The notes below the pieces were generated by a model, which saw only the letters and a program-made list of their open reading frames with translations, had not been told where the DNA came from and searched no databases. Position numbers and translations under genes: made by a program. A DNA stretch of 64,000 nt from Gammaproteobacteria bacterium (GTDB lineage: Bacteria > Pseudomonadota > Gammaproteobacteria > Steroidobacterales > Rariloculaceae): contig JAJEGN010000016.1 in NCBI GenBank assembly GCA_022819855.1, forward strand, positions 1 through 64,000, written 5' to 3'. Positions 31,940-34,472 of the stretch are shown here, in pieces (the first letter of the stretch is position 1; each line of letters opens with the position of its first letter).

Positions 31940-32250
31940 TGGTGGGCCCGGTAGGACTCGAACCTACGACCAAGGGATTCACTGTAACCCGCCGTTTCCG
32001 GCGGCAGCGGACTATCTCTTCACCCGCAAGTCGCCTTGCTGGGGTGCGGGACGCTCTCGCCTGTCATCAAGAGCACTGAAGCTCTCAGGTAGTCTCTGCA
32101 CCTTCCGCCGGTGTACCGGCGGCTTGGCTCAGGATTGCCGGCACAAGGTGCTGCGGTTCCCCTGAATTCATCCCGTCCACTCCACGGCTTTCACCGCGAA
32201 GGCACCGTTTTCGATGAGTCCCCTGCTCTAACCAACTGAGCTACAGGCCC
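31940..32250 (-). tRNA. tRNA-Ile2(CAU) gene interrupted by a group I intron; CCA encoded
   Basis: Minus-strand exons GGGCCTGTAGCTCAGTTGGTTAGAGCAGGGGACTCAT (32250-32214) and AATCCCTTGGTCGTAGGTTCGAGTCCTACCGGGCCCACCA (31979-31940) fold as a complete cloverleaf with anticodon CAU. Confidence 0.95.
31980..32213 (-). ncRNA. Group I self-splicing intron, 234 nt, IC3-like
   Basis: P1 CAUCG-AAAA-CGGUG across the 5' splice site; CAGGGGAACC (P), GGCAATCCTGAGCCAAGCC (Q), AAGGTGCAGAGACTA (R), AAGAGATAGTCC (S, pairs in P7); terminal omega-G. Confidence 0.95.
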
Positions 32251-32398: not shown

Positions 32399-32508
32399 GG
32401 GGAGGCGTACTGCCGCTCGCTTGAAACCCTCGCGCGCAGGGATGCGCGCGTGGAGCTTACAGGGATGTATTTACAGCGTGTTTCAAGCGAGCGGCAGTGC
32501 GCCTCCCC
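32399..32508 (+). repeat. Dispersed hairpin repeat, copy 3
   Basis: 29-bp stem arms 32399-32427/32480-32508 with one T-G wobble; inner CGCGCGCAGGGATGCGCGCG and TTACAGGGATGTA. Confidence 0.93.
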
Positions 32509-32533: not shown

Positions 32534-34348
32534 TTAGTCCTGCAGGAAACTGCGCAGTTGGTCCGAGCGGGACGGATGGCGCAGCTTGCGCAGCGCCTTG
32601 GCTTCGATCTGCCGGATGCGTTCGCGCGTGACGTCGAACTGCTTGCCGACTTCCTCGAGCGTGTGGTCGGTGTTCATGTCGATGCCGAAGCGCATGCGCA
32701 GGACCTTCGCTTCGCGCGGCGTGAGGCCGGCGAGCACCGCATGAGTGGTTTCCTTGAGGCCGGAGTCCGTCGCCGAATCGATCGGCGAGGCGGCGCCTGC
32801 GTCCTCGAGGAAGTCGCCGAGATGCGAATCGTCGTCGTCGCCGACCGGCGTCTCCATCGAAATGGGCTCCTTCGCGATCTTCAGGACCTTGCGGACCTTG
32901 TCCTCGGGCATTTCCATGCGCCGCGCCAGCTCGTCGGGCGTCGGCTCGCGGCCCATCTCCTGGAGCATCTGCCTGGAGATTCGGTTGAGCTTGTTGATCG
33001 TCTCGATCATGTGGACCGGGATCCTGATCGTGCGCGCCTGGTCGGCGATCGAGCGGGTGATGGCCTGGCGGATCCACCAGGTCGCATAGGTCGAGAACTT
33101 GTAGCCGCGACGGTATTCGAATTTGTCGACGGCCTTCATCAGGCCGATGTTGCCTTCCTGGATCAGGTCGAGGAACTGCAGGCCGCGGTTGGTGTATTTC
33201 TTGGCGATCGAGATCACGAGCCGGAGGTTGGCCTCGACCATCTCCTTCTTGGCGCGGCGTGCCTGCGCCTCGCCGAGCGAGACTTCGCGGTTGATGTCCT
33301 TGATTTCCTGGATCGTCAGCGCAGTCAGGGACTCCAGTTTCTGCAGGCGCCTCTGCGCCCGCAGGACTTCGTCCCTGCGCTTGTTGAGCCGGGACGAGTG
33401 CTTGCGCTTGGCGCGGATGTGCTTTTCGATCCAGTGCAGATTCGTTTCGTTGCCCTGAAAGCTCGAGATGAAGTCCATGCGCGGCATGAAGCATTGCCGG
33501 ACGCAGAGATCGAGGGTCTGGCGTTCCTGGTTGCGGATGTCGTTGACCACATCGCGCAGCAGCTCGACCATTCGGTCGAACAGCTTCGGTGCGAGCTTCA
33601 GTTCCATGAAGTCCGTCGTCATCGCCACGAGCACCTTCTCGGTGCGCGCGTGCTTGACACCGTACCTGGCCAGCGCGTCGATGTACCGCTTGTGAAACCG
33701 CCTGAGCTTCTTCAGGCGCTTCGCCACGTCCGCCGGATCGGGGTCCTTGTTGGGATTGGAGTCGTCGCTGTCGTCCTTGCGCGCCGACGGGTCGGCGATC
33801 TGATCGTTCGGGTCGATGAAGCCGACGATGAGGTCCTGAAGCCTGGCGTTGCCCTGCACGACGTTGTCGTGCGTGGTGAACACCAGATCGAGCGTCGGCG
33901 GAAACTGCACGAGTGCCGCGCGAACCTGGTCGAGGCCTTCCTCGATGCGCTTGGCGATCCGGATTTCGCCCTCCCGGGTCAGCAGCTCCACCGTGCCCAT
34001 CTCGCGCATGTACATTCGCACGGGATCGGTCGTTCGGCCGAACTCGCTGTCGACGGTCTCGAGCGCCGCGGCCGCCTCGTCCGCAGCGTCGTCATCGCTC
34101 GATACGGCGTTGTCGGACAACAGCAGCGACTCGGCATCCGGCGCCTTCTCGTGCACCGTGATGCCCATGTCGTTGATCATGTTGACGATATCCTCGATCT
34201 GCTCGGGATCGACGATGTCGCTCGGCAGGTGGTCGTTGACCTCGCCGTAGGTCAGGTAGCCCTGCTCCTTGCCCTTGGAGATCAGGAGCTTGAGCTGGGA
34301 TTGTCGTTCGTCTTCGTGGTGCGGAGCAGTAGAAGCCATGGATGCCAT
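32534..34348 (-). CDS. rpoD: RNA polymerase sigma factor RpoD (sigma-70)
   Basis: [52 protein letters not shown]-terminal [31 protein letters not shown]. Confidence 0.97.
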
Positions 34349-34472
34349 GTCCCTCGGAGTCGCCGAACCAAACAAGCAATTATACAGTGACTGAACTTGC
34401 CGGATAAGGCACGAAAATCAGGTGCAGGCTACGCACGCGTGCCGGTCGGACCACGCGCGTTCGGTGCGGGGT

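Follow-up and report, generated by a model that had tools for sequence, protein, structure and literature searches.

A group I intron with an additional P7.1 helix interrupts the tRNA-Ile2 gene in the genus of Candidatus Rariloculus and in other Gammaproteobacteria

How does a bacterium read AUA codons if the gene for the tRNA that should decode them is interrupted directly behind its anticodon? The question is raised by a 64,000-nt stretch of DNA (contig JAJEGN010000016.1, positions 1 to 64,000; hereafter the window) from a gammaproteobacterium of the genus of Candidatus Rariloculus; a minus-strand tRNA-Ile(CAU) gene at 32250-31940, downstream of rpoD, carries there a group I intron of 234 nt behind its anticodon (Table 1). 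The 5' exon terminates in GGGGACTCAT at 32214, the 3' exon begins with AATCCC at 31979, and the joined exons form a 77-nt cloverleaf with the anticodon CAU and an encoded CCA. Against the Rfam family Intron_gpI (RF00028), the sole family with a match within the window, the insert covers the model fully (1-253) and scores 65.9 bits (E 1.7e-14) where the gathering score is 50. A sequence-only reading of the window had placed a group I intron at 31980-32213, right after the CAU of tRNA-Ile2, in an apparently gammaproteobacterial host, and had proposed that its removal restores a complete tRNA; the coordinates proved exact, and the Rfam match, the cloverleaf and the genus of the host bear out the rest.

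The CAT/AAT junction was assigned by the U-G plus omega-G rule, since the last base of the 5' exon is a U that pairs with G in P1 and the last base of the intron is a G; the same rule is given for tmRNA introns (PMC11915505). Default ARAGORN reported no tRNA in the window. With introns allowed, it recovered precisely this span with an intron of 234 nt, but it labelled the gene tRNA-Gln(CTG), because it placed the junction differently. No homing endonuclease ORF lies within the intron, as had been proposed: the only ORF of at least 30 aa wholly inside it has 31 aa and is unremarkable, and the 234-nt intron is not of the mobile, endonuclease-bearing kind. A plasmid BLAST search returned no record spanning most of the query and short pieces only, consistent with the tRNA exons. 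Between rpoD and the tRNA gene there is also an inverted repeat (32399-32508) with 29-nt arms that are 97% complementary and separated by 52 nt. The genome contains the arm motif 18 times, four times as facing pairs 94 bp apart, and the repeat is a member of a dispersed REP/MITE-like palindromic family.

Table 1 Features of the interrupted tRNA-Ile2 gene and of its upstream neighbour, with positions in the window
Feature	Position	Strand	Remarks
rpoD, upstream neighbour in most relatives	32534..34375	-	six Sigma70 Pfam domains
5' exon, tRNA-Ile2 positions 1-36, ending in anticodon CAT	32214..32250	-	spliced product folds as CAU tRNA
Group I intron, 234 nt, terminal omega-G at 31980, no ORF of note	31980..32213	-	RF00028, covariation
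P1, exon CAU plus CG pairing with CGGUG, U-G at splice site, AAAA loop	32203..32216	-	
P2 hairpin, GAAA loop	32180..32201	-	9/9 pairs with changes on both sides
P3, CGGGA (32175-32171) with UCCCG (32051-32047), pseudoknotted with P7	32047..32175	-	100% paired
P4-P5, P4 = 32166-32161 with 32133-32128	32128..32166	-	P4 99.7%, P5 100% paired
P6 and P6a	32101..32127	-	P6a: 5/7 pairs changed on both sides
P7, guanosine-site helix, GACUA (32094-32090) with UAGUC (32014-32010)	32010..32094	-	matches R and S
P7.1 (CCUG 32089-32086 / CAGG 32063-32060) enclosing P7.1a (AGAGC/GCUCU)	32060..32089	-	
P8	32021..32046	-	98.8% paired
P9.0 (GCU/AGU) and P9, GAAA loop	31981..32008	-	double changes: P9.0 3/3, P9 6/6
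3' exon, AATCCC to encoded CCA	31940..31979	-	

The fold was assessed on 51 aligned introns of the P7.1-bearing tRNA-Ile2 type, in which the pairs of P1-P9 were counted with the P3/P7 pseudoknot included. All helices, the pseudoknot among them, are consistent across the 51 introns, with 97.4% of the cells paired and double-sided changes at 33 of the 69 pairs; none of 500 shuffles reached any of the measures, and sliding the partners lowered pairing to 36-45%. P2, P6a, P7.1a, P9.0 and P9 covary in many sequences. The first four pairs of P1 are invariant and the fifth is variable, the U-G pair being present in 51/51 introns, and P9.0 puts the terminal omega-G correctly at 31980. The P1 of CAUCG-AAAA-CGGUG with its U-G pair at the splice site, the Q, R and S motifs and the terminal G were all found as the sequence-only reading had described them. 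The P3/P7 pseudoknot itself appears to gain little from covariation: P7 is 100% paired and invariant in the 51 introns, hence neutral as evidence of this kind, and P3 shows compensatory change at three of its five pairs in one sequence only (L173). Single-sequence folding gave a wrong structure for the intron because the P3/P7 pseudoknot cannot form in it.

Two points had escaped the earlier reading, namely the P7.1 domain and the commonness of the intron in related bacteria. P7.1/P7.1a, named here by position, is a two-part hairpin, its inner stem variable, which lies after the 5' strand of P7 and before the 3' strand of P3; its nine pairs are conserved in 51/51 introns, five of them with double changes. 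Among 163 extracted tRNA-Ile introns, a set that includes duplicate loci of one genome, P7.1 was detected by script in 157 and by eye in three more (L077, L177 and L189). The three tRNA-Ile introns without it (L201, L234 and L236), from other genomes of the order, are Azoarcus-like and 198 nt long. P7.1 is also missing from the introns of tRNA-Leu and tRNA-Arg in the order, and the spacing from R to S is 19-38 nt in those of the host family versus 63-89 nt in the P7.1 type. In two tRNA-Ile2 introns from bins labelled Verrucomicrobia (L173 and L214), the outer stem of P7.1 is changed to GCGG/CCGC.

Group I introns in cyanobacterial tRNA-Leu and tRNA-fMet genes are established cases. The cyanobacterial/plastid-type tRNA-Leu(UAA) intron, which has relatives in two genera of the host family (g2 and g9), resembles the host intron in being an anticodon-loop group I intron without a large ORF; it differs in lying inside the anticodon after GACTT, in lacking P7.1 and in its P9 region. 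The introns of tRNA-Lys(CUU) (L067, L074 and L075) likewise follow the third anticodon base and have a stem, GCGG/CCGC, between P7 and P3, but they interrupt another tRNA, measure 213-216 nt and are well separated in sequence. The Azoarcus tRNA-Ile intron shares with the host intron the tRNA, the site after CAU, compactness, the lack of an ORF, the GAAA loops of P2 and P9 and similar P, Q, R and S motifs; it is about 201-205 nt long and has no P7.1, whereas the host intron has 234 nt and carries P7.1/P7.1a between P7 and P3. The tRNA-Ile(CAU) group I intron of Azoarcus sp. BH72, an IC3 intron with a crystal structure, is cited in PMC3984707. The tRNA-Ile2 genes of Acidovorax and Burkholderia are interrupted by group I introns and missed by tRNA finders (tRNAscan-SE 2.0 paper, PMC8450103), as the same gene is in the host, a likeness drawn from their published description. 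Group I introns of tRNA-Ile2 are thus already published for Azoarcus, Acidovorax and Burkholderia, and the host copy is a newly found member.

The sequence-only reading had counted the intron among the Azoarcus and cyanobacterial IC3 introns, which holds for the site and the core motifs but does not extend to P7.1, a helix missing from Azoarcus-type and Leu introns; where the compact IC3 core runs from the 5' strand of P7 to the 3' strand of P3 without a helix, the host intron has one. It is rather doubtful that the intron belongs to the lineage of the Azoarcus tRNA-Ile ribozyme and differs from it by drift only. The identical tRNA and site, the similar P, Q, R and S motifs and an IC3-like compact core speak for such a descent, but P7.1/P7.1a is conserved with compensatory changes and missing in L201, L234 and L236 of the same order, the three introns from which the contrast is drawn. 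Moreover, an intron tree built with the P7.1 columns, in which Azoarcus is represented by a single sequence, separates the two types, the deep nodes losing support when these columns are masked. At the Azoarcus site, the host intron apparently represents a separate lineage, which may be a new variant, marked by the P7.1 helix and by its wide occurrence in Gammaproteobacteria. A literature search on tRNA-Ile introns in Gammaproteobacteria or Rhodanobacter and on Rariloculus, with a coverage outside which most subscription papers fall, gave nothing relevant.

Whether the host depends on this gene was addressed in its assembly (3.73 Mb in 22 contigs, 97.7% complete), which contains one group I match. 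It had been proposed that AUA could be read only after splicing unless a second ileX exists; no uninterrupted tRNA-Ile(CAU) was found in this draft, either among the tRNA matches or with the exon pattern of an intact tRNA-Ile2. Among the tRNA matches of the host, CAU occurs in two Met tRNAs only, in addition to a degenerate CAT gene at C22:91603-91674. The cloverleaf with CAU restored by joining the exons and the presence of TilS in the genome (160 bits) identify the product as a lysidine-dependent tRNA-Ile2. Since no uninterrupted tRNA-Ile(CAU) occurs in the assembly and TilS is present, AUA decoding in the host should depend on splicing of the intron; a second tRNA-Ile2 gene could sit in a gap of the assembly. 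That the intron has degenerated, so that the tRNA-Ile2 gene is dead and AUA is read by another tRNA, is highly improbable. The draft state of the genome and the CAT gene on C22 leave some room for it, but that gene has a shortened D-arm and no RF00005 match at E 0.001, and AUA is in use, accounting for 12 of 153 Ile codons in six ORFs of the window. The intron structure, furthermore, is intact and common to the two other genomes of the genus, JAJDVG010000031.1 and Candidatus Rariloculus versatilis JAQAJI010000014.1, which also have 234-nt introns (L039 and L040). The CAT gene itself sits in an array (L050, G000:C22:90600-91900) of unusual and in part degenerate tRNA genes (Ser, Asp, Ser, His, Ser and CAT), the make-up of which is suggestive of a mobile element.

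The best explanation overall, with a probability of roughly 0.93, is a self-splicing group I intron in the sole tRNA-Ile2 gene that persists mainly by inheritance. From the sequence, structure and junctions as directly observed, along with the sole copy in the assembly and TilS, we infer catalysis and splicing in vitro and in vivo. The transcribed intron would fold and bind exogenous guanosine in P7, and the guanosine would attack the splice site behind the anticodon CAU, where P1 has its U-G pair. Once released, the 5' exon would in turn attack after the omega-G and thereby join CAU to AAU, the anticodon stem (GGGGA/UCCCU) holding the exons together. TilS would then put lysidine at C34 of the mature tRNA, allowing AUA to be read. 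Being free of an endonuclease, the intron would be maintained at the rpoD-tRNA-Ile2 locus chiefly through inheritance, with precise loss occurring repeatedly and with probable exchange between closely related hosts.

In the host family, a group I match was found in 19 of 22 genomes, 11 of them in tRNA-Ile and the rest in tRNA-Leu(UAA) or tRNA-Arg(UCU). A group I match is present in 180 of 398 genomes of the order; across the class, 19 of 378 genomes match, spread over many families. Named carriers include Dyella, Rhodanobacter, Lysobacter, Luteimonas, Pseudoxanthomonas, Steroidobacter, Granulosicoccus and Woeseiaceae, and one carrier (L108) is betaproteobacterial. Across the 398 genomes of the order, 115 have the interrupted tRNA-Ile2 junction and 118 have the intact gene, and the two are nearly mutually exclusive (2 genomes with both versus 34 expected; Fisher p ~1e-18). 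The first of these two, the metagenome bin G276, has two contigs with an identical 84-nt 3' flank, one beginning inside the intron and the other intron-free, which most likely represent intron-plus and intron-minus alleles of two strains (L238/L248 and L239/L247) and not two genes. In the second (G363), an Azoarcus-type copy and an intact copy lie 1.5 kb apart.

In 81 of 143 loci the stretch retrieved also contained rpoD, in 78 of them upstream and on the same strand. Across families, intron and RpoD distances are correlated (57 loci, r 0.67; 0 of 9,999 permutations as high). Within one genus of the order (g15, 15 introns), the correlation is r 0.02, and the pattern of presence and absence of the intron requires a minimum of six changes, each demanded by branches with good support, which rules out purely vertical inheritance. 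A recent horizontal arrival in the host lineage could account for such changes within a genus, for the patchy presence in the order and class and for the introns of several tRNA hosts in one family. It is nevertheless unlikely, as all three genomes of the host genus and most Ile-type genera of the family share the site and a common family motif, and introns in the Rariloculus genus are 96-97% identical where RpoD is 89-95% identical. The means of gain and loss we infer from the distribution as directly observed: the best reading is that the intron has long stayed at the rpoD-tRNA-Ile2 locus and has often been lost precisely, and that introns have probably been replaced laterally among close relatives.

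Judged by the sequences compared, the intron belongs to a gammaproteobacterial lineage that is widespread, is inherited patchily and has one helix more than the Azoarcus intron. We tentatively advance, as a possibility short of even odds, that a distinct P7.1-bearing, endonuclease-free subgroup, at the site also used by the separate Azoarcus-type lineage, occupies the anticodon loop of the sole AUA-decoding tRNA across many gammaproteobacterial families and has been repeatedly lost and regained within genera. Default tRNA finders overlook an essential AUA-decoding tRNA in many Gammaproteobacteria, the affected cultured genera including Dyella, Rhodanobacter, Lysobacter, Luteimonas and Steroidobacter. 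More than 100 natural versions of a minimal ribozyme are available at a single site beside the host marker rpoD, as are relatives of the same genus that lack the intron and, within one metagenome bin, even the two alleles side by side, making the persistence of endonuclease-free introns directly testable.

Other group I introns were observed in the family and the order. Seven loci of genera g2 and g9 in the host family (L042-L047 and L049) carry cyanobacterial-type introns in tRNA-Leu(UAA), and tRNA-Ile2 is mostly intact in the g9 genomes. A 1.2 Mb genome of the family has a group I intron within the anticodon of tRNA-Arg(UCU) (L048), and group I introns in apparent 23S rRNA were found in other genomes of the order (L069, L073 and L079).
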